The translations under genes and the position numbers were made by a program. 24,184 nucleotides of DNA from a virus. The DNA is taken from positions 1 to 24,184 of the IMG/VR virus record IMGVR_UViG_3300032516_000197; one strand, 5' to 3'. Of the stretch, positions 3,469 through 21,630 are shown one piece after another. The notes below the pieces were generated by a model that worked only from the letters and a program-made list of their open reading frames with translations, searched no databases and was not told the origin of the DNA. Numbering within the stretch: the stretch's first letter is position 1; each line of letters begins with the position of its first letter.

Positions 3469-4887
3469 CTATCCGAAACGGAATAACACAAAGTTGTTTG
3501 CACCTAAAGTACATACACATCTTTCAGACAAGAAGTTAACCTCCATTGCGTCTAAGTCAGATGTTTGAGCACCACCGGCAGAACCTGTAATCCACGTTTT
3601 GTATCTACGGTCTTCAGCTTCTGAAGCACGGTATCTAACGTGTAAGAAAGGTCTCTTTGCGTTTTTACCCATAATTTGGTCGTACACTGATGTAGAACCG
3701 GCAGGAACCATAAGTCCTGTGATTGTACCCGTAGCAGTAGCTGCAACGTTAGACAAACCACCTCTCATAGTTGGGTCGTTTAGATATTTCCAATCAGATT
3801 TGTAGAAATCGTAACCTCTACGGAATCCTGTGAAACCTAAGTTAAGAGCCATATCAACATCATTATCGAATAAACCAAAAGATGCAGATTGAGCAACACC
3901 ACCTGAAGTGTATCCATTTAATGTTGCCAACATATTGTCGATGTCAAAAGACAATCCACGATTAACAAAAACAACGTTTTCTTCGATAGCACCTTGCTTG
4001 TCTAAACGAGAAACAATAGAATCCCACTCATTCAAAGAAGTTGGAGAACCACCTCCCCAAACGTTACCTCTATTGTTTACAACATAGAAGATACCTTCAG
4101 ACCCCATCATACCTGCTGTTTTAGCGCCCGAACCGGTTGCGGCAGGAACTGCTTCAATCATAGAAGTTTCGATGTAATCTTCAAAACGCAAACGAGTTTC
4201 GTGCTCTGATTTTAAATACCACAAGTACCCTGTAGCACCGTTCTCAGTAGTAACTTCAACCCATCCGATTTGAGCCATATCAGAACCATTAACCGCATAT
4301 TTATCTTTCAAGATAATTGGGTTATTGCTGTAGATGTCATCTTCAGCTTCCAAAGAACCAACCATTCCGTTAGTTCCTTTTTTAAACTCAGAGCCGTAAA
4401 TAAATACAGTGCATTGAGTAGATACAGCAAATGCTTGTCCTGTTGCTTCGTAGTAAGCTACTGTGAAAGTAGTTGCTGAAGGAACTGCTGTAACAATTGC
4501 TTTGTTAAACACACCTGATGCGTTATTTTGAATCATCACAGTTTGACCTACTCTGATTGCAACGTAAGTAACGCCTGAATCAGCCACAGTGAAAGTAGCA
4601 GTATTTGCTGCTGCTGCCGCACCTGAAGTACAGTTTGTATACTTAATATGAAGACGACCTTGTTCTGCCCATTTGATTTGGTCAGAATTAGAAGGCATCT
4701 CTGCACCTACCATTCTCAAGAATGATGCGATGGTTCTATTACCGTAACGCTCAAATTCTTTTTCGTAAGTATCAGGAAGATACTGATTCAAAAAGTTGAA
4801 GTTGGTAATGTAGTTTGTCTGCAACGCTACTTGCTCAGCACTTGGCTGTAATGCAAAAGTAGGGTTTGATAATAATGTACCTGCCAT
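3469..4887 (-). CDS. Major capsid protein
   Basis: 472 residues, the size expected for a HK97-fold capsid subunit of this phage type. The N-terminus (TLLSNPTFALQPSAEQVALQ) is followed by a helical region with YLPDTYEKEFERYGNRTIAS and RMVGAEMPSNSDQIKWAEQG. Residues about 87-166 are a Thr/Ala/Val-rich beta insertion. Downstream are RLRFEDYIETSMIEAVPA, then NNRGNVWGGGSPTSLNEWD, SFDIDNMLATLNGYTSGG and a C-terminal region ending in CVCTLGANNFVLFRFG. It lies directly after the scaffold-like gene, with portal and terminase upstream, and ends at its own terminator. Base composition is clearly richer in G+C than most neighbours (29 of 60 in the line at 3541), as often seen in highly expressed genes. 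Function is inferred from order, length and recalled similarity. Confidence 0.8.
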   Translation of the reverse strand: MAGTLLSNPTFALQPSAEQVALQTNYITNFNFLNQYLPDTYEKEFERYGNRTIASFLRMVGAEMPSNSDQIKWAEQGRLHIKYTNCTSGAAAAANTATFTVADSGVTYVAIRVGQTVMIQNNASGVFNKAIVTAVPSATTFTVAYYEATGQAFAVSTQCTVFIYGSEFKKGTNGMVGSLEAEDDIYSNNPIILKDKYAVNGSDMAQIGWVEVTTENGATGYLWYLKSEHETRLRFEDYIETSMIEAVPAATGSGAKTAGMMGSEGIFYVVNNRGNVWGGGSPTSLNEWDSIVSRLDKQGAIEENVVFVNRGLSFDIDNMLATLNGYTSGGVAQSASFGLFDNDVDMALNLGFTGFRRGYDFYKSDWKYLNDPTMRGGLSNVAATATGTITGLMVPAGSTSVYDQIMGKNAKRPFLHVRYRASEAEDRRYKTWITGSAGGAQTSDLDAMEVNFLSERCVCTLGANNFVLFRFG

Positions 4888-4905: not shown

Positions 4906-6051
4906 TTATATTTTTTTCATACTACGGATTTTTAGACTCTTACCGGAATCAGGGTTTACCGCTTTTACCTGCATTCCTTCCATTGATTTTGTGATTTCAG
5001 GAGCTCTATTTGCGGACATTTGAATATTTTTAATGTTCTTCATAGTACCTTCAGTCGCATCTGCTTGTCCTTGTTCGTAAAAGAACTTTGCAAATTTCTC
5101 AGGATTCATAGCTACAGCTAATGACCTATGATAACCTGCCGCATCCTTAATTAAGCCCTGCTCATCTAAAAACTTATTTATAAAGTTTGCAGGTGTAGCT
5201 TGTGCCTTTTTAAGTTCATTAGCATCTCCGGGATTGAAAGCGATTCGCTTGTCATTAACATTGAACTCAAAACCTTTGAACTCTCCGTTAAATACCTCAT
5301 CAGTCTTTTGGTTAAACCAATTCCTTTTTCTTTCATTCTCTTCCTCATTAGTCTTCGCTTGCTTGGTATATTGCTTGTAGCTTTCATAAATTTCTCTCTC
5401 CTCATCAGAAATCAGTGGAGCACTTGACTCAAGTGGCACTTTGTATTGTTCTTTTTGAGCATTAAAAAATTTCTTTGCCTCAGCAACTGCCTTTTTTGTT
5501 GCAATCTTAACTCTTTTTATGTGTGATTCATCATCAATGTCTTCGTCATAACGATAATCATCCATTAAAGAGTCAATATCATCAGCATCAAGTCCTTCTT
5601 GAGTTGCTGATAAATATTGTTCAAGTAAACTTTCCGAGTCCATTGAGTCAAAATCTTTTTTAAGACTTAAAAAATCCTCAAATCCTCTTCCTGTTTCTTT
5701 TTTGTATTTCATATAAGCGGCAACATCTTCAGGTAAAGCCTCAGCTTCTTGCCTTTGAGATGTCAATTCATCTAATGAATTAATCTGCTTATTGTATCTT
5801 TTTCCAATATATGAAAGAACTTGCTCTTCATTTAATTCAACCTCTTGCCGTTGCTGTTGCTCTTGCTCTTGCTGTTGCTCCTGCTGTTGCTCTTGCTCTT
5901 GCTGTTGCTCCTGCTGTTGCTCTTGCTCTTGCTGCTGCCCCGGTATATTTACATTTTGAAATTGTTGCTCGTGTTTTTCAAGTAACTCTTGTTCTACTTG
6001 AGCAGTTCCTTTCTCTTCTGTACCATCTAATAATCTTACTTTAATTTCCAT
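4906..6051 (-). CDS. Probable capsid scaffolding protein
   Basis: 381 residues, strongly acidic and helical. Residues 39-69 are a low-complexity Gln/Glu tract built on the 10-residue unit EQEQQQEQQQ. After it come EVELNEEQVLSYIGKRYNKQ and long charged helices (about 90-260), then a C-terminal part with FINKFLDEQGLIKDAAGYHR and a basic tail ending in KSLKIRSMKKI. An acidic coiled-coil protein with a basic C-terminus placed between portal and capsid genes is the usual profile of a scaffolding protein, the short basic tail being the likely capsid contact. No protease motif was recognised. The leader carries the ATCAAATCAAATG start context and a TAGCTTTG box, so it may begin a capsid transcript. 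Confidence 0.6.
   Translation of the reverse strand: MEIKVRLLDGTEEKGTAQVEQELLEKHEQQFQNVNIPGQQQEQEQQQEQQQEQEQQQEQQQEQEQQQRQEVELNEEQVLSYIGKRYNKQINSLDELTSQRQEAEALPEDVAAYMKYKKETGRGFEDFLSLKKDFDSMDSESLLEQYLSATQEGLDADDIDSLMDDYRYDEDIDDESHIKRVKIATKKAVAEAKKFFNAQKEQYKVPLESSAPLISDEEREIYESYKQYTKQAKTNEEENERKRNWFNQKTDEVFNGEFKGFEFNVNDKRIAFNPGDANELKKAQATPANFINKFLDEQGLIKDAAGYHRSLAVAMNPEKFAKFFYEQGQADATEGTMKNIKNIQMSANRAPEITKSMEGMQVKAVNPDSGKSLKIRSMKKI
5845..5937 (-). repeat. 30-bp in-frame repeat encoding a Gln/Glu tract
   Basis: Just over three tandem copies of a 30-bp unit rich in TTGCTC and TTGCTG encode EQEQQQEQQQ-type units in residues 39-69 of the scaffold-like protein. Being in frame and a multiple of three, it can change length without breaking the gene. 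Confidence 0.8.
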
Positions 6052-15902: not shown

Positions 15903-16310
15903 TTATTTACATTTAGCTTTACCGCTATTATTAGTGTAAATACATCTACCCTTGTCTCCAAGTGGATTTAATCTACTTAATAAACTTGGTCTATCCGTAT
16001 TAGCACTTTTGGTCTCTTTCATTTTACCACCGCCTTCAACTTCTGTAAATTTTACCTTGCTATCGTTTTTTACTTTTTTAGCATACTCGTCAACGGTTAA
16101 TCCTCGTCTTTCAGCTCCTTGTTTAAATTTTTCTGTCATTCTATTTGTTACATCTTGACTTATAGAATCTTTATATTGTTTAACTCTTTCCATTCCTCCC
16201 TTTTGTTTCAACTCAGCTATTTTTTTTGCTTTTTCAGGCTGAGACATTTGCTGCCAAGTTTTAGGGTCAGGAGTACTTGCTAACGGGGTGTCGGGTCTTT
16301 GAATTGCCAT
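15903..16310 (-). CDS. RPDTPLA-tagged basic hypothetical protein
   Basis: 135 residues, lysine-rich. The N-terminus MAIQRPDTPLASTPDPKTWQ carries the RPDTPLAxTP signature shared with three proteins at 20080-20911, about 4 kb away. The rest is helical and charged (SQPEKAKKIAELKQKGGMER, then AERRGLTVDEYAKKVKNDSK) and ends in NPLGDKGRCIYTNNSGKAKC-K with a Cys pair. No known enzyme motif. It lies 5 bases downstream of the candidate spanin gene and ends 53 bases before the next. The shared tag plus basic body suggests a virion-packaged or assembly-associated protein; that is inference. Confidence 0.65.
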   Translation of the reverse strand: MAIQRPDTPLASTPDPKTWQQMSQPEKAKKIAELKQKGGMERVKQYKDSISQDVTNRMTEKFKQGAERRGLTVDEYAKKVKNDSKVKFTEVEGGGKMKETKSANTDRPSLLSRLNPLGDKGRCIYTNNSGKAKCK

Positions 16311-16315
16311 AATTT

Positions 16316-16789
16316 TTAGAATAAAGTTTTGTTAATTTTTTTGTACATATAGAATCCAATTACAATAAGAAGCAACACTAAAAGCCACCACAAATAAATT
16401 GAATAATTAGTTTTTTTATCAATTTCCTTTTTAAAGGTTTTTACTGAAGTATCTTTTTTTACATTAACTTCAATTGAGGCTTTTTCAGACACTTTTATTT
16501 TTGTAGTATCTACTAATACCTTTTTTGTTTTTTTATACTTCAGTTTTACGTTTTTGTATTTTTTTCCATCTACTTCAATACATTTTGAAGTGTCAATAGG
16601 AACTATTTCTAATTCATCAGTATTTGTTGTAATACTAATGTGATTATCTTGAGTCGTTACACTTTCTTTTTTTGTTACAGAAGTACTGTCTGTTTTTATT
16701 TGAGAATCTACTTTGTTTATATCTACTTTTCTTGCAGCGCAAGAAGTGATAAGAACAAGTACTACTATATATAATATTAACTTTTTCAT
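16316..16789 (-). CDS. Lipoprotein with C-terminal membrane anchor, candidate unimolecular spanin
   Basis: 157 residues from MKKLILYIVVLVLITSCAAR; upstream in-frame ATGs lie inside the previous gene and give an implausible lysine-rich lead. Residues 1-16 are a lipoprotein signal with lipobox LITS-C17. Residues about 25-125 are a Lys/Thr/Val-rich periplasmic stretch of beta character. Residues 131-148 (IYLWWLLVLLLIVIGFYM) form a transmembrane helix with a basic tail. An outer-membrane lipid anchor at one end and an inner-membrane helix at the other is the topology of a u-spanin such as T1 gp11, which fuses the two membranes at the end of lysis. It overlaps the upstream gene by one base (TAATG), in a row with endolysin and holin. 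The role is inferred from topology and context. Confidence 0.6.
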   Translation of the reverse strand: MKKLILYIVVLVLITSCAARKVDINKVDSQIKTDSTSVTKKESVTTQDNHISITTNTDELEIVPIDTSKCIEVDGKKYKNVKLKYKKTKKVLVDTTKIKVSEKASIEVNVKKDTSVKTFKKEIDKKTNYSIYLWWLLVLLLIVIGFYMYKKINKTLF

Positions 16790-17061
16790 TAACAATTCCA
16801 TTTTCTTAATGCTAATGCCTTTCTTGTTGGTTCTCCGTTTGGTTTTTTCATAGGACCTTCCATTCCTCCCATACGAGCACAAAAAGACTTTCGTCTATTA
16901 GCATCTTTACTTCCGGGTTTTAATTTAGAAGGTTTAGTGGTAACAGCCATTTTTAATTTGCTTCCCGGATTAGCAGCTCTATAACTTGCTACTCCTTTAG
17001 CATTCAATCCTCCTGTTTCAGATTTACCTTCTTTTCTTGTCCAAGCTGCTGTCTTTGCCAT
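16789..17061 (-). CDS. DUF6321-like small basic phage protein
   Basis: 90 residues starting at MAKTAAWTRKEGKSETGGLN; the start 30 bases upstream would overlap the endolysin gene and is less likely. AWxRKEGKxxxGGLNAKGxASY at the start and RRKSFCARMGGM, then KPNGEPTRKALALRKWNC at the end are the pattern I know as DUF6321, a family common in phages. Very basic, with two Cys near the C-terminal half. It sits between endolysin and candidate spanin with a 2-base gap and a TAATG overlap. Function unknown; its place in the lysis set may simply reflect late expression. Confidence 0.75.
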   Translation of the reverse strand: MAKTAAWTRKEGKSETGGLNAKGVASYRAANPGSKLKMAVTTKPSKLKPGSKDANRRKSFCARMGGMEGPMKKPNGEPTRKALALRKWNC

Positions 17062-17063
17062 AA

Positions 17064-17528
17064 CTATTCTTTTATTTGAAAATGCATCCAATCGTAATTT
17101 TTCTCTCTTCCTAATGACTCGAATCCGTATTTATAGAATATGTCAATCATTGGTTTGTATTCAGGTCGAGCAAATCGAGCAGTTTTCGATGTCTCTTTTA
17201 ATAAATTTCTTGCCGGGTCTAAGTCAACTGCTATTCCCCAAGAGTGAGTTGACCAAGCAGACCCACCTCTCATTTTTCGATAGTTGAAACATCCACCAAA
17301 CAAATCAATTCCTAATTCTTTTATTTTGTTAGAACCATAGTGAGCAAGTATATCAGCAAAAACTGCTTTAAATTTATCAGCCACTAATTTATGACACATC
17401 ATTGTAGTTACATTTGTATCAATATCCCAAGCAAGACGCATAGGATATGGAAGTTGAATTTTTACCAAATAATTAACTCCCGTTTCATTGGGAGTTCCAT
17501 ATTTTTTTGTAATTTGTTGTGTTGTCAT
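17064..17528 (-). CDS. Endolysin, M15-family peptidase (L-Ala-D-Glu / VanY-like)
   Basis: 154 residues, no signal peptide. The zinc motif SxHxxGxAxD is at 93-102 ([11 protein letters not shown]95 and D102), and the third ligand is H149 in DWMHFQ. R84 in [11 protein letters not shown] precedes it as in M15 peptidases. These residues fit a metal-dependent peptidase that cuts peptidoglycan stems. Without an export signal it needs the holin encoded just upstream; the holin ATG/stop of this gene share 1 base. Followed by a DUF6321-like gene and the candidate spanin, so it forms a lysis cassette. Confidence 0.9.
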
Positions 17529-17959
17529 TATTGTAAATTGTTTATATTTTGCTTCACTTCTTTTGCTCTTAAAAATGCTTTTTTAAGCAATTGCCAAATG
17601 TCAACTTTAAAAGTCTCCTCAACATTTTCTTTTATAGAAACCAACTCTATAAAAATTAACATTATTGCACATATCTTAGTAAACATATAGTCAAACTTAA
17701 ACCAATGGAATACAAATTCATTTAAAACAAATTTATCTATTAAAAAAAGGAACAAAATACATATCTCATATAATGCCATTTTTGATATTATATTTGACAA
17801 GACTCTACTCCTAATGCTTGCCCATCCTTTTAATTTTACACTTTTAAAAATTCCTGTAAAGGTATCAAGAATTATTGCTGCTGCTACCGCAATTAAAAGC
17901 CCGTGTATCGGAACAAATAATAATATTAGCGATGAGAATATGTAATTTATATATTTCAT
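17528..17959 (-). CDS. Holin
   Basis: 143 residues with three hydrophobic segments at about 6-31, 58-76 and 92-108 and a basic tail ([13 protein letters not shown]). Residues 32-39 (DTFTGIFK) carry the D-x-x-T-G-x-x-K signature after the first helix that I know from the toxin-secretion/phage-lysis holin families of Gram-positive and Bacteroidota phages. It ends in the start codon of the M15 endolysin gene and begins in a TAATG overlap with the upstream 44-aa gene. It should form membrane lesions that release the endolysin to the periplasm. Confidence 0.8.
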
Positions 17960-18093
17960 TATCTTCCTTGTCCTCTATACGCTTTCACGTAGTTTTTACT
18001 TGATTTTAAAGTGCTCGTTTTAGTCTTTGCAGCTACGCCTGACTTCTTTGGTTTTGCTTTATAAGCACTATCTTGTTGTTTTACTTTTGCCAT
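17959..18093 (-). CDS. Small basic protein (44 aa)
   Basis: A short frame from ATG at 18093 to TAA at 17959: it starts MAKVKQQDSAYKAKPKKSGV and ends SKNYVKAYRGQGR. It contains 14 Lys/Arg in 44 residues and no hydrophobic segment. The stop overlaps the holin start as TAATG, the same coupling seen at other real gene joints here, and only 1 base separates it from the upstream stop; both support a real gene. It resembles the other MAK-starting micro-proteins at 19751-20064 in style. Function unknown; DNA or RNA binding or virion packing is possible. Confidence 0.6.
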   Translation of the reverse strand: MAKVKQQDSAYKAKPKKSGVAAKTKTSTLKSSKNYVKAYRGQGR

Positions 18094-18094
18094 T

Positions 18095-18583
18095 TTACCA
18101 AAGAGCTAATACATTAGTAGCTGTAGTTCCTGTTGCTCTAAGCTGTACAATTTGAATAGGAAGAATTGTTCCAACAGGTACTGATAAAAAAGTTACAATA
18201 TCTCCACCTATAGTAACAACAGATACATTTCCTGCTCCACCTATATACAAATTACATCCTTCGTTTGCTATTCCTGATTGAGGAGACATTCCATAAACAG
18301 AAAAAGTTTTACCTGTAGCAGTGAATATATTTGCATTTAATGTTAATTGAGTTTGACTATCTACATTTAATACAGTTGCAGCAGTTCCATCGGTATCATT
18401 ATGAACAACATCTCCTGCCCTTACATTATCTGAAACAAATGTAGCTGAACTACTTATTAATTTTAAAGACGTTGAGGTGGTATTTGTTCCTGTGTCAACA
18501 AAACTATATGGAACTGCAATATCAGCATTGTCTGATTTATGCGCTATTATCGCTCTTGAAAATTGTGATTTGAATACTGACAT
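18095..18583 (-). CDS. Beta-rich virion protein, possible capsid decoration protein
   Basis: 162 residues, Thr/Ser/Val/Gly rich with little helix, typical of head decoration or tail surface proteins. Residues about 36-98 (SLKLISSSATF, RAGDVVHND, QTQLTLNANIF, KTFSVYG) match the inserted beta module in the ring protein at 1581-2546 and more weakly that in the capsid protein. The C-terminal 60 residues (GCNLYIGGAGNVSVVTIGGD, then FLSVPVGTILPIQIVQLRAT) look like strands that would sit on a surface lattice. The downstream small gene starts one base after its stop, and the upstream gene's stop overlaps its start. Role inferred from composition and shared module. Confidence 0.55.
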   Translation of the reverse strand: MSVFKSQFSRAIIAHKSDNADIAVPYSFVDTGTNTTSTSLKLISSSATFVSDNVRAGDVVHNDTDGTAATVLNVDSQTQLTLNANIFTATGKTFSVYGMSPQSGIANEGCNLYIGGAGNVSVVTIGGDIVTFLSVPVGTILPIQIVQLRATGTTATNVLALW

Positions 18584-18765
18584 TATTTTAGTATTTTATT
18601 GATTAATAAATCGGGGTTATTTAATTTTTCTTTTCGTGCCTCACATCCACAAGGTACTCCTGTAATTTCAGAAACTTTTTCAACAACAGTTTTTATTCCT
18701 GTTGCTGTCGTTACTTTTTCAATAACATCTCCAAAGCCAAGTCTTTTAGTTCTTATATAGTGCAT
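18583..18765 (-). CDS. Conserved small phage protein with CGC motif
   Basis: 60 residues. It reads LGFGDVIEKVTTATGIKTVV, then SEITGVPCGCEARKEKLNNP. The G-L/F-G-D-x-I-E-K-V-T-x-A-T-G-I-K plus C-G-C-x-x-R-K-E-x-L-N pattern is one I recall from many phages of Bacteroidota and T4-like groups, always without assigned function. Two cysteines around one glycine could bind metal with a partner. A TACCTTTG sequence lies only 3 bases upstream of the ATG, too close for a normal leader. The stop overlaps the next start by 1 base. Confidence 0.7.
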   Translation of the reverse strand: MHYIRTKRLGFGDVIEKVTTATGIKTVVEKVSEITGVPCGCEARKEKLNNPDLLINKILK

Positions 18766-18775
18766 AACAAAGGTA

Positions 18776-18895
18776 TTACTTTTTTTTATTTTTTTGAACA
18801 GGTAGTTTACTTACGTTCCCTTTTAAAAACTTCATCTTACCATCTAATGATTTCTTAGACTCGTATTGTTTTGCTTTCTCAGTTACTTTTTTCAT
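18776..18895 (-). CDS. Small basic protein (39 aa)
   Basis: A frame from ATG at 18895 to TAA at 18776. It starts MKKVTEKAKQYESKKSLDGK, continues MKFLKGNVSKLPVQ and ends in NKKKK-type lysines. It fills the gap between two clear genes with 3 bases to the upstream stop. Lysine-rich, no hydrophobic core. Could be chance, but spacing and composition match the neighbouring micro-proteins. Function unknown. Confidence 0.5.
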   Translation of the reverse strand: MKKVTEKAKQYESKKSLDGKMKFLKGNVSKLPVQKNKKK

Positions 18896-18898
18896 CTT

Positions 18899-19237
18899 TT
18901 AAATTTTAGTCACACGATTACCCATTCCAACTTTTGATTTTTCTGCTTTTTTAGCAGTCAATTTAGATTTGCTTATTTCAGATATGGTTTTTGGTGTTTT
19001 TGAAGATACTTTTACTTTTGGCCTACAATACTCATTACTTCCTCCCGCACCACAAGCTTTGCCTGTTTTAGTATCAGTCCATTTTTCTTTATCCCATCTT
19101 TTTAGAGATGTTCCTGCTTCTGTTTTTCTAACAACGCCTGAACCCTTCCTACATTTAGCAATAGCTTGTGACGCTCTTGCAGATGGAAAAACATCGTACT
19201 GAGCTTTTACTTTTTTATAACACGCATCTTTTGGCAT
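18899..19237 (-). CDS. DUF5872-like Cys/Lys-rich phage protein
   Basis: 112 residues, very basic. The first part, ACYKKVKAQYDVFPSARASQ followed by AIAKCRKGSG, is the pattern I know as DUF5872 from phages. The second part, SLKRWDKEKWTDTKTGKACG and NEYCRPKVKVSSKTPKTISE, is a further Cys-containing unit I recall as often fused to or near it. Four cysteines spaced in two pairs could form a small metal-bound core. It starts in the stop codon of the next upstream gene (1-base overlap). Function unknown; such proteins are often late, and may be virion components. Confidence 0.7.
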   Translation of the reverse strand: MPKDACYKKVKAQYDVFPSARASQAIAKCRKGSGVVRKTEAGTSLKRWDKEKWTDTKTGKACGAGGSNEYCRPKVKVSSKTPKTISEISKSKLTAKKAEKSKVGMGNRVTKI

Positions 19238-19527
19238 TAGTACTTTCCTTTACGATTACTTGGATTTGGTGTTGTTGAACCTCCCGACCCTGCCCATAAA
19301 TTTTTACAAGCCCAATATCGGGGAGTTAGTTTGTCATTTGCGGTATCACAACTATGCCTTGCTTTAAAACTTCTTCTTGCAGCAGGACTATAGTTATTAC
19401 CATATCCTTTTGCTCCAAAATGGAGAAGTTTTTCTTCTCCATTGGAACAAGCTTTTACCATCTTCTTCTTCCCCGGTCTATCCGAAGGAACAGGTCGATT
19501 ACATTGCATTTTTGACTTATTGGCCAT
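19237..19527 (-). CDS. Conserved Cys/Arg-rich phage protein (SFxARHxCD family)
   Basis: 96 residues. The core KKKMVKACSNGEEKLLHFGA, then AARRSFKARHSCDTANDKLT and PRYWACKNLWAG matches a small protein I recall from cyanophages and many uncultured marine phages, where SFRARHxCDxAxDKLxxxYWxCKxW is near invariant. Basic, with Cys at 9, 27, 60 and 74 or nearby, suggesting a metal-binding fold. It stands beside the DUF5872-like gene with a 1-base overlap. Function unknown to me. Confidence 0.75.
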   Translation of the reverse strand: MANKSKMQCNRPVPSDRPGKKKMVKACSNGEEKLLHFGAKGYGNNYSPAARRSFKARHSCDTANDKLTPRYWACKNLWAGSGGSTTPNPSNRKGKY

Positions 19528-19528
19528 T

Positions 19529-19580
19529 TTACTCAGGAGTTACTTCAGGAGTTGCTTCAGGAGTTACTTCTTCAGGAGTT
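19529..19580 (-). repeat. 12-bp tandem repeat encoding TPE units
   Basis: The plus strand shows repeated TTCAGGAGTTAC or TTCAGGAGTTGC units, four copies with one 3-base insertion, encoding VTPE/ATPE at the C-terminus of the 67-aa protein. Confidence 0.75.
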
Positions 19581-19732
19581 ACTTTAGAAGCTCCTCTATT
19601 AAAATCTCTGCTGCCATTTCCCGGGTCTTCTCTTTCAGGAGGGGGAATATTTAAAATAACCTCCACAGTAGGAGTTGTTTCGATAATAGGAACTATTTCG
19701 GAAACTACTTTTTTGTTTAATTTACCTGCCAT
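19529..19732 (-). CDS. Pro/Glu/Thr-rich small protein with repeated tail
   Basis: 67 residues. A short hydrophobic-alternating start (AGKLNKKVVSEIVPIIETTP, then VEVILNIPPPERED) is followed by a C-terminal tail built from VTPEEVTPEATPEVTPE, encoded by a tandem 12-bp repeat. It lies 1 base upstream of the next gene's start region. Low-complexity composition makes family assignment impossible. The tail is likely disordered. Function unknown. Confidence 0.5.
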   Translation of the reverse strand: MAGKLNKKVVSEIVPIIETTPTVEVILNIPPPEREDPGNGSRDFNRGASKVTPEEVTPEATPEVTPE

Positions 19733-19750
19733 TTTTTTAAAATTTAATAA

Positions 19751-19918
19751 TTAACAATAAGGGTTTTTACCACCCATACCTTTTCCTGATGCCGATTTTG
19801 TAACCTTACGAGTTACGCCATTAGTATCAGCTTTTAATTTAATACCGGAACTTGCTACTGAAGTACTTGGCATCTGCATACGAGATGAACCCGGTAAGTT
19901 TGGAGTGTCTTTAGCCAT
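19751..19918 (-). CDS. Small basic protein (55 aa) with TPNLPGSSRM motif
   Basis: A frame from ATG at 19918 to TAA at 19751, beginning MAKDTPNLPGSSRMQMPSTS and ending in SGKGMGGKNPYC. The start resembles that of the next upstream protein (MAKVKATPGLPEASRKKMPM): both have MAK, TPxLP, an S-R and a following MP. Lys/Gly/Ser rich, no hydrophobic segment, a single terminal Cys. Gaps of 2 bases upstream and 18 bases downstream fit the tight packing here. Function unknown. Confidence 0.55.
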   Translation of the reverse strand: MAKDTPNLPGSSRMQMPSTSVASSGIKLKADTNGVTRKVTKSASGKGMGGKNPYC

Positions 19919-19920
19919 TT

Positions 19921-20064
19921 TTATTTCTTTTTAATGTTTGCTTTTACACCTGCCGCTTTGGATGGTGCTTTGAATCCATTTTTGTTTGCAGGTTTAGCTG
20001 CTGCCATTGGCATTTTTTTTCTTGATGCTTCAGGTAATCCGGGTGTTGCTTTTACTTTTGCCAT
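19921..20064 (-). CDS. Small Ala/Lys/Pro-rich basic protein (47 aa)
   Basis: A frame from ATG at 20064 to TAA at 19921: MAKVKATPGLPEASRKKMPM, then AAAKPANKNGFKAPSKAAGV and KANIKKK. The composition (13 Lys, 11 Ala) is like histone H1 or other nucleic-acid condensing tails. It shares the TPxLPxxSRxxMP lead with the 55-aa neighbour, so the two may be paralogues. It follows the 97-aa RPDTPLA protein by 15 bases. A role in DNA condensation in the head is speculation. Confidence 0.55.
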   Translation of the reverse strand: MAKVKATPGLPEASRKKMPMAAAKPANKNGFKAPSKAAGVKANIKKK

Positions 20065-20079
20065 TTTGTTTTTATTTAT

Positions 20080-20373
20080 TTACGTTGTTTTTATTTTAGT
20101 TCTATCTGCGAATGATGCTAATCCATAAAGTCTTGAACCTTCTCCTGCAATAGACTTTCTTCCTTTACTTCTTTCTATTCTTGCCGCATCAAGCTTTGCT
20201 TGAGTTTCATTTTTAGATGCCTGCCTTTCAGCGCTTCTTTTATTAATATCATCTATTATTGATTTTAAATTTGTAACAGGTGTAGTTGCATCAGGTGTTT
20301 CTGCCAATGGAGTATCAGGCCTTTTAACCGCATCAGCTTTTCTTTCTTCCTTTGTTTTTTTTACAATTCCCAT
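20080..20373 (-). CDS. RPDTPLA-tagged hypothetical protein (97 aa)
   Basis: 97 residues. RPDTPLAETP is at 18-27 after a basic lead (MGIVKKTKEERKADAVK). The body is helical and charged (LKSIIDDINKRSAERQASKN, then KLDAARIERSKGRKSIAGEG). No Cys, no membrane segment, no known domain. It is one of three adjacent proteins with the same signature. Six bases separate it from the upstream gene. Function unknown. Confidence 0.6.
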   Translation of the reverse strand: MGIVKKTKEERKADAVKRPDTPLAETPDATTPVTNLKSIIDDINKRSAERQASKNETQAKLDAARIERSKGRKSIAGEGSRLYGLASFADRTKIKTT

Positions 20374-20378
20374 AGTTT

Positions 20379-20570
20379 CTATTGTTGAGGTGTTTCAGGT
20401 GCAGTAGGCACGATTGCTTTGATTTTATCTATAGCACTGTTTGCAGTTTGCTCAAATTTTGTAGCAACTCTTTGCTGAGGCATACCTCCAATTTGTGTTG
20501 TAGGTTGTAAGCCTGAACTAACAGGTTGTGGTTCAGGCGTTGCCGCTAATGGAGTATCAGGTCTTTGCAT
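20379..20570 (-). CDS. RPDTPLA-tagged hypothetical protein (63 aa)
   Basis: 63 residues. RPDTPLAATP begins at residue 3 of the protein, directly after Met-Gln. It is followed by a Pro/Gln-rich linker (EPQPVSSGLQPTTQIGG) and one short amphipathic helix (KFEQTANSAIDKIKAIVP), ending TAPETPQQ. It looks like a tag plus disordered linker plus short helix. Two bases separate it from the upstream gene. Function unknown. Confidence 0.55.
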   Translation of the reverse strand: MQRPDTPLAATPEPQPVSSGLQPTTQIGGMPQQRVATKFEQTANSAIDKIKAIVPTAPETPQQ

Positions 20571-20572
20571 TG

Positions 20573-20911
20573 TTATTTATTTTTTTTAAAAAGATTTATT
20601 ATTTTAGGACCTAAATCATTTCTTCTTGTAGCATTATAAAGTCTTTCGTCTCTATTCTCATCAGTAATTGGTGGAGGAGTAGCCGCTAATGGTGTATCAG
20701 GTCTAAGAACTTTTTTACCTTGTGATTCACGATTAAGTTTGCTTTCTGACTTCATTATAAACTCATCAGCCTGCGCCTTTCTTTTGTTTAGAGACTCCTT
20801 TCTATTCTCAGCCCTATCTTCCATCCTGTTAGCAACTTTTTTTGCTCTTTCAGGATTTGTTTCGGCTATTCTGCCAATTCTTTTATATTGACCGGGTCTT
20901 AATTCTTCCAT
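20573..20911 (-). CDS. RPDTPLA-containing basic protein, first gene of the late leftward operon
   Basis: 112 residues, Arg/Lys/Glu-rich. Residues 1-65 are a charged helix region (ELRPGQYKRIGRIAETNPER, then KKVANRMEDRAENRKESLNK). RPDTPLAATP is at 69-78, followed by a short C-terminal part ending LGPKIINLFKKNK. Here the signature is internal instead of N-terminal. It is the first minus-strand gene after the divergent promoter at 20931-20974 and so likely begins the transcript that continues into the lysis and fibre genes. Function unknown. Confidence 0.65.
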   Translation of the reverse strand: MEELRPGQYKRIGRIAETNPERAKKVANRMEDRAENRKESLNKRKAQADEFIMKSESKLNRESQGKKVLRPDTPLAATPPPITDENRDERLYNATRRNDLGPKIINLFKKNK

Positions 20912-20930: not shown

Positions 20931-20974
20931 TAACTTTGTACAAATGTATAAAAAAAAAATTAAATGAAATCAAA
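20931..20974. promoter_or_regulatory. Divergent promoters around a TTTGTACAAA palindrome
   Basis: On the minus strand TTTG (20974-20971), a 22-base spacer and TACATTTG (20948-20941) match the Bacteroidota -33/-7 pattern, 30 bases before the ATG at 20911. On the plus strand TAACTTTG (20931-20938) is a -7 box 25 bases before the ATG at 20964, with no clear -33. The two -7 boxes meet in the perfect 10-bp palindrome TTTGTACAAA (20935-20944), so RNA polymerase could load only one way at a time, and the palindrome could be an operator. Confidence 0.55.
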
Positions 20975-21407
20975 TCAAGATGATTACCTAAAATATTGGA
21001 GAGTCATTCGCCAATTCGCAAAAATTAAATACGAACTAACTCAGGCTGACTTAGATATGCTATTGTTCTTATACTCTGAAAAGTATTTTGGAAAAGATAA
21101 GTTTGAAGAGTTTGACAGTCTTTTAGGTTGGGATGTAACTCGTTTCTTCAGACTTCAAAAAGATGGGTGGATTGTAAAGTTTAGAAATAGAGTTGGCAAT
21201 AGAAAGGCTCTATACCAATTGACAGTCAAATCCACGAGAATGATTCAATCACTTTATAGAAAACTAAGCGGGGAAGAAATCCCCGTTAGTAATTCTAATA
21301 ATAAAATGTTCTTAAAGAACGTATCATATTCAGACAAAGTCTATCGCGATATGATTATCGAAATGAACAAAGTTATAAAACAACAACGACATCATTCTCG
21401 CGAATAA
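20964..21407 (+). CDS. Putative winged-helix transcriptional regulator
   Basis: 147 residues, the only plus-strand gene in the window. Residues about 10-45 give two helices (YWRVIRQFAKIKYELTQADL, then DMLLFLYSEKYFG), residues 50-68 a helix-turn-helix-like segment (FDSLLGWDVTRFFRLQKDGW), and residues 68-87 a basic wing with strands (VKFRNRVGNRKALYQLTVKS). This is the layout of a MarR-like winged helix. The C-terminal 50 residues are basic and helical. It is divergent from the late genes and its 3' end overlaps groES by 35 bases in the opposite direction. A role in controlling the late promoter is inferred from position. Confidence 0.55.
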   Translation: MKSNQDDYLKYWRVIRQFAKIKYELTQADLDMLLFLYSEKYFGKDKFEEFDSLLGWDVTRFFRLQKDGWIVKFRNRVGNRKALYQLTVKSTRMIQSLYRKLSGEEIPVSNSNNKMFLKNVSYSDKVYRDMIIEMNKVIKQQRHHSRE

Positions 21408-21630
21408 TTGTGTATTGCTTATCATCAATCAGCATTGTAAATCCGTGCGCCTTATCGTAGTAGATGTCATCATCTTTTTTGATATGCGGTACATCAGTAC
21501 CGCTTTCTACTACTAAGCCACGCTTGTAACGCATCTGATTCATATCTTCTCCCGATAGAAACAATCCTGATTCAGTTTTTAACTCTTCATCAATGGTCTT
21601 GATGACGATGTATTTACCAATTGGTTTCAT
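21373..21630 (-). CDS. groES: Phage co-chaperonin GroES
   Basis: 85 residues, about 10 shorter than bacterial GroES. It begins KPIGKYIVIKTIDEE, then KTESGLFLSGEDMNQMRYKR: residues 16-34 correspond to the mobile loop, with the hydrophobic tripeptide L-F-L (23-25) in place of I-V-L, which docks on GroEL. Then RGLVVESGTDVPHIKKDDDI (the V-x-x-G-D region) and FTMLIDDKQYTIIRENDVVV (closing strands). The roof loop is short. It follows groEL by 11 bases; in bacteria the order is usually groES first. Would cap the phage or host GroEL ring during folding of capsid proteins, by analogy with T4 gp31. Confidence 0.85.
   Translation of the reverse strand: MKPIGKYIVIKTIDEELKTESGLFLSGEDMNQMRYKRGLVVESGTDVPHIKKDDDIYYDKAHGFTMLIDDKQYTIIRENDVVVVL

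Follow-up and report, generated by a model that had tools for sequence, protein, structure and literature searches.

The window, by which we mean the whole 24,184-base virus record analyzed here, carries a minus-strand late gene cluster. Read from right to left, it runs through GroEL, GroES, a cluster of tiny genes, an M15-type peptidase (called by similarity to annotated, syntenic genes in relatives) and a repeat-rich fibre-like protein, and continues leftward into the large terminase, the portal, a scaffold-like ORF, and a virion structural protein. Four small proteins encoded on this strand share a short peptide—RPDTPLA, followed by S, E, or A and then TP—as an initial annotation of the DNA had pointed out (Table 1). 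All four ORFs and their tags are where that annotation placed them. Its observation that the rest of these proteins cannot be aligned also held: with the tag masked, BLAST among the four bodies gave no meaningful similarity and only short, chance-like matches, the best of which covers 8–10 residues between the 135- and 112-residue proteins (E 0.003–0.03). A pattern search of the whole record returned four matches and its reversed-peptide control 0, and the composition-based expectation of RPDTPLAxTP in the late proteins of the window is ~1e-8.

Table 1. Positions of the tagged proteins and of other features in the window
Feature	Position	Strand	Remarks
Virion structural protein, taken as probable major capsid protein	3469..4887	-	Context; putative tag receptor
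Scaffold-like ORF between portal and capsid protein	4906..6051	-	Position only; putative tag receptor
Fibre-like protein, 727 aa	13077..15260	-	Made of NTAIG/NTAVG-type repeats
Possibly Dps-like protein, 113 aa	15270..15611	-	Beside tagged genes; PHROG 858 match (starvation-inducible regulator), 1e-23
Tagged protein, 135 aa	15903..16310	-	RPDTPLASTP, residues 5-14
Untagged neighbour	16789..17091	-	49% identity to C-terminal segment of S-SCSM1 ORF29
Untagged neighbour, DUF5872	18899..19237	-	Similar to segment of cyanophage S-SCSM1 ORF29, "virion protein"
Untagged small basic neighbour	19237..19527	-	phrog_220 "minor head protein and DNA pilot" module, E 4e-17
Small acidic protein	19529..19732	-	SRDF near C-terminus, conserved in most relatives
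ORF with second N-terminal motif	19751..19918	-	TPxLPxSSR[ML]xxP
ORF with second N-terminal motif	19921..20064	-	TPxLPxSSR[ML]xxP
Tagged protein, 97 aa	20080..20373	-	RPDTPLAETP, residues 18-27
Tagged protein, 63 aa	20379..20570	-	RPDTPLAATP, residues 3-12
Tagged protein, 112 aa	20573..20911	-	RPDTPLAATP, residues 70-79
Bacteroidetes-like promoter candidate, TTTG-N22-TACATTTG	20941..20974	-	Just upstream of tagged cluster; consensus match only
Conserved opposite-strand ORF between GroES and tagged cluster	20964..21407	+	Weak similarity to transcription regulators
GroES-like co-chaperonin	21373..21630	-	Context; tag-less relatives have one too

Searches of Pfam, PHROGs, NCBIfam, and PADLOC gave nothing convincing for the four tagged window proteins. 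Among the PADLOC defence models no tagged body found a confident match, and one body matches TIR models weakly and partially (E ~0.002). The body of the 63-residue protein (PEPQPVSSGLQP...) is the most widespread of the tagged bodies, and that of the 112-residue protein belongs to a family marked by RPGQYKRxGRIAExNPERA, whose members in other phages carry the tag near the C-terminus. For the 135-residue protein, an AlphaFold2 model of low confidence (mean pLDDT 62) predicts a helical body between an unstructured tag and a disordered tail. In alignment A2, where whole proteins are 24–49% identical to this 135-residue protein, the D, P, L, and A of the tag are invariant.

What kind of cluster surrounds the tagged genes? 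Three untagged neighbours resemble modules of phage virion proteins (Table 1), two of them matching two segments of S-SCSM1 ORF29, a 517-aa protein recorded as a virion protein. Mass spectrometry of S-SCSM1 virions identified 45 proteins (PMC9602691), and to judge by its product name ORF29 is probably one of them. Together these similarities indicate a virion-type gene cluster—a statement about the cluster and not about the presence of the tagged proteins in virions. In ORF29 itself (L267 208–1761), modules that have their own small genes in the window phage are joined in a single chain.

Several other features of the window deserve mention. A further N-terminal motif, TPxLPxSSR[ML]xxP, recurs on tiny lysine-rich proteins of two kinds. 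Nearly every genome examined has it, even the tag-less G032, and it may represent another tag or a remote variant of RPDTPLAxTP. The SRDF of the small acidic protein slightly resembles the RDYPL form of the tag. A Q/E repeat (QQQEQEQQQEQ...) occupies part of the scaffold-like ORF and is seemingly missing from its homologue in MW202828, and the conserved plus-strand ORF, divergent from the tagged genes, may be a controller of the late cluster.

Occurrence, variants, and placement of the tag

How common is the tag outside the window? The search of phage sequences for RPDTPLA that the initial annotation had proposed was productive: a degenerate DNA pattern for RPDTPLAxTP matched at least 80 stretches in IMG/VR, with up to four matches each, versus 0 stretches for the reversed peptide. 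A variant scan with RD[YF]PL[AS]xTP matched 34 stretches, further to or overlapping those found with RPDTPLAxTP. Bacterial and archaeal genomes totalling 257 Gb gave 10 isolated single matches in unrelated taxa; few of these lie in an ORF that starts with ATG, and none represents a repeated small-protein tag. An origin of the motif by chance or composition is ruled out by the reversed scan, the cellular-genome scan, and the in-window expectation. RPDTPLA went unmentioned in the literature searched.

The consensus of the natural tags reads R-(x)-D-[T/Y/I/F]-P-L-[A/S/G]-x-[T/S]-P. Of 207 distinct tagged proteins, 131 have RPDTPLA as the core and 36 have RDYPLS/A, while RDTPLA, RDIPLA, RKDTPLA, RDFPLA, and further forms make up the others; these proportions mirror the search patterns used. 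The core is followed by any residue, then by T or S (90/10%) and P (96%)—two positions partly imposed by the search expression—and often by E and then P (68%). Within the family of the 112-residue window protein, the same tag site holds RPDTPLA, RDYPLS, or RDIPLA in different phages, and this exchange at one site suggests that the variant forms are equivalent. The 131 RPDTPLA copies are encoded by 95 distinct 21-mers, with all four third-position bases at several codons, which rules out a DNA-level repeat; selection acts on the peptide.

Is the tag a property of particular proteins, or does it move among them? The 207 proteins fall into about 36 body clusters (BLAST 1e-3, single linkage, composition correction off), an approximate count because low-complexity proteins may merge and short ones split. 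In 174 of the 207 the tag is no more than 20 residues from the N-terminus, in 24 it is no more than 25 residues from the C-terminus, and in the other 9 it is internal. One body family (PDYRN...TAKDSxDYxxGFE) is tagged N-terminally in L070 but C-terminally in L065, and BLAST between the two gives separate matches to the body (1e-14) and the tag (4e-5), with their order exchanged. In the family of the 97-residue window protein, a conserved body follows an intact tag, a decayed tag (RESTPLGDSP, RDSKPLSESP), or none, and L039 encodes an untagged member of this family along with tagged proteins from other families. The tag, encoded on the late strand, is a peptide module that is under selection, mobile, and not tied to one position.

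Carriers, genomic setting, and composition

Which phages carry the tag, and where in their genomes? By its terminase, the window phage is related to MW202828, an uncultured podovirus genome from Manatee Spring (77% identity), to Flavobacterium elemo phages (45%), and to phages of Cellulophaga, Tenacibaculum, Azobacteroides, and Maribacter; therefore, its host is probably a member of the Bacteroidetes. The tag carriers form a clade of uncultured, mostly aquatic phages with one to five different tagged proteins per phage. In a portal tree, which is incompletely supported within the clade, at least one tag is present in 16 of the 19 members of the clade, the three without it being MW202828, G032, and the incomplete contig G031. 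Neither MW202828 nor the more distant elemo, Panino, and phi38:1 phages encode the tag, and these named tag-less phages have no other shared peptide in its place. Searching the flanks of the terminase missed most tags because they can lie up to ~10 kb or more upstream. No candidate receptor gene common to tagged and missing from untagged genomes was found among the G004 genes shared across genomes; with no gene tracking the tag, any phage-encoded receptor is probably a structural protein or chaperone of a general kind.

All 48 tagged genes in the 14 genomes with tags in our scan lie on the terminase (late) strand, versus 369 of 846 untagged small ORFs (nominal P about 5e-18, a value that ignores the relatedness of the genomes). 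Tagged genes are usually the first of the late cluster, beside GroES. Strand and position suggest that they are expressed with the late genes, as in T4; a late-strand location is compatible with any late function. The tagged proteins are at most 209 aa long, with a median pI of 9.9 (88% above 9) and 20% hydrophobic residues, compared with a median pI of 6.9 (38% above 9) and 35% hydrophobic residues in untagged small late-strand ORFs, a contrast that is indicative only because the background includes some spurious ORFs. The 63-residue window protein, at pI 6.0, is not basic.

The initial annotation read the peptide as a sorting or docking tag on unrelated bodies, and in this respect it is strongly supported by the ~36 body clusters, the tags at opposite ends of one body, the loss of the tag from conserved bodies, its synonymous encodings, and the 48/48 late-strand location. 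The protease or chaperonin recognition site that it offered among the possible roles fares less well, as set out below.

Candidate functions of the tag

What might such a tag do? The best explanation, and one to which we attach moderate confidence, is a swappable virion- or head-loading tag with a role like that of the T4 capsid targeting sequence. Capsid loading, which the initial annotation had put forward, is the most likely specific role in view of gene context and the precedent of T4. A portable short linear motif would be placed on small, basic, mostly disordered late proteins, and a conserved head component (i.e., the scaffold, the major capsid protein, or the portal) would bind the extended, proline-rich tag. 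The tagged body would then be recruited into the forming head and become an internal protein, packaged alongside the DNA and possibly ejected into the host. The tag would thus act as the loading signal, a head protein as its receptor, and the bodies as delivered proteins. More tentatively, the tag may be a position-independent, apparently uncleaved, open loading code, in which gaining R(P)D[TY]PLAxTP would be enough to turn any small protein into a delivered head protein, and lineages could swap their injected effectors by shifting ten residues from body to body.

A position-free linear motif would suit any peptide-binding partner, and the tagged proteins might instead dock on a phage or host factor within the infected cell—for lysis control, host takeover, or regulated degradation—with no role in the virion. 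Lysis functions are also found among late genes, and the cluster includes an M15 peptidase. However, the untagged neighbours resemble virion-protein modules, the bodies are basic, disordered, and in no recognized enzymatic or regulatory family, and cellular genomes are not enriched for the motif; we regard intracellular docking as unlikely. The same late-cluster context, together with the fact that decoration proteins differ among relatives, would fit a tag that fixes small decoration or tail proteins to the outside of the virion. To this we assign a decidedly small probability: basic, hydrophobic-poor bodies are unlike folded display domains, and the similarity of the neighbours is to an internal type of minor head and DNA pilot protein.

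Could the peptide be a signal for processing or folding, as the initial annotation also proposed? GroES and GroEL adjoin the tagged cluster, and the prohead protease removes the targeting peptides of T4. Yet C-terminal and internal tags are ill-suited to removal as propeptides, no protease was recognized among the window proteins searched, and the tag-less relatives MW202828 and G032 have GroEL and GroES just as well. Furthermore, the residue following PLA can be P, A, E, T, N, or D (LAE occurs in some copies only), which argues against a fixed LxE-type protease site. A prohead-protease or GroEL/GroES recognition site is, in our estimate, very unlikely. We consider it even less probable that the tagged proteins descend from a single family as paralogues that have diverged everywhere but in the motif, with no separate tag function. 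Their genes do stand in tandem within a single cluster, and some of the bodies are connected under permissive BLAST settings; but one body is tagged at opposite ends, conserved bodies occur without the tag, and the window bodies are unalignable. The placement at opposite ends and the loss of the tag largely refute a single homologous family, and homologous bodies with a common fold—the finding that the initial annotation had set against its own reading—were not seen, the bodies failing to align in the same order outside the motif.

If the tag is a loading signal, every metagenomic protein that bears it could be named as virion cargo, and dozens of uncharacterized small genes would become a testable set of delivered proteins. 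The T4 strategy of one targeting peptide on variable internal proteins would then have arisen independently in another phage lineage, and a short, position-free peptide would be at hand for packing foreign proteins into phage heads. With the consensus and its natural variants now defined, mutational tests can be designed directly.

Comparison with known systems

How does the tag compare with known ways of loading proteins into capsids? The putative capsid protein of the window phage had no match among PDB sequences, and its AlphaFold2 model (mean pLDDT 40) is unreliable for fold assignment. In the Bacteroidetes phage phicrAss001, several viral proteins are stored in the capsid and tail, with cargos of 60–277 kDa (PMC10172136). 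These cargos are large, unlike the small tagged proteins here, and a search of that paper for a shared tag turned up none. S-SCSM1 ORF29 and phrog_220 contain the same small lysine- and cysteine-rich modules as the untagged neighbours in the window; there, however, the modules lie inside one long protein, and ORF29 is without the RPDTPLA tag. Encapsulin cargo-loading peptides offer a more general likeness, as short linear peptides that send unrelated cargo into a shell, one of HK97 fold whose inner wall has a pocket for the peptide, although encapsulins are cellular compartments.

The closest parallel drawn here is with the internal proteins of T-even phages, which are packaged along with the DNA and injected (PMC3012670). 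The two signals are unrelated in sequence. That of T4 is N-terminal only and is cleaved, whereas the tag is free in position and has no conserved cleavage site; we examined these two defining features, found neither in the tag, and do not claim membership in the T4 family. The T4 internal proteins are present in the virion; the tagged proteins are putative virion proteins, of phages whose host phylum is probably Bacteroidetes. The likeness lies in the design: as with the capsid targeting sequence of T4 IPI, IPII, and IPIII, one short peptide is carried by diverse small basic late proteins.
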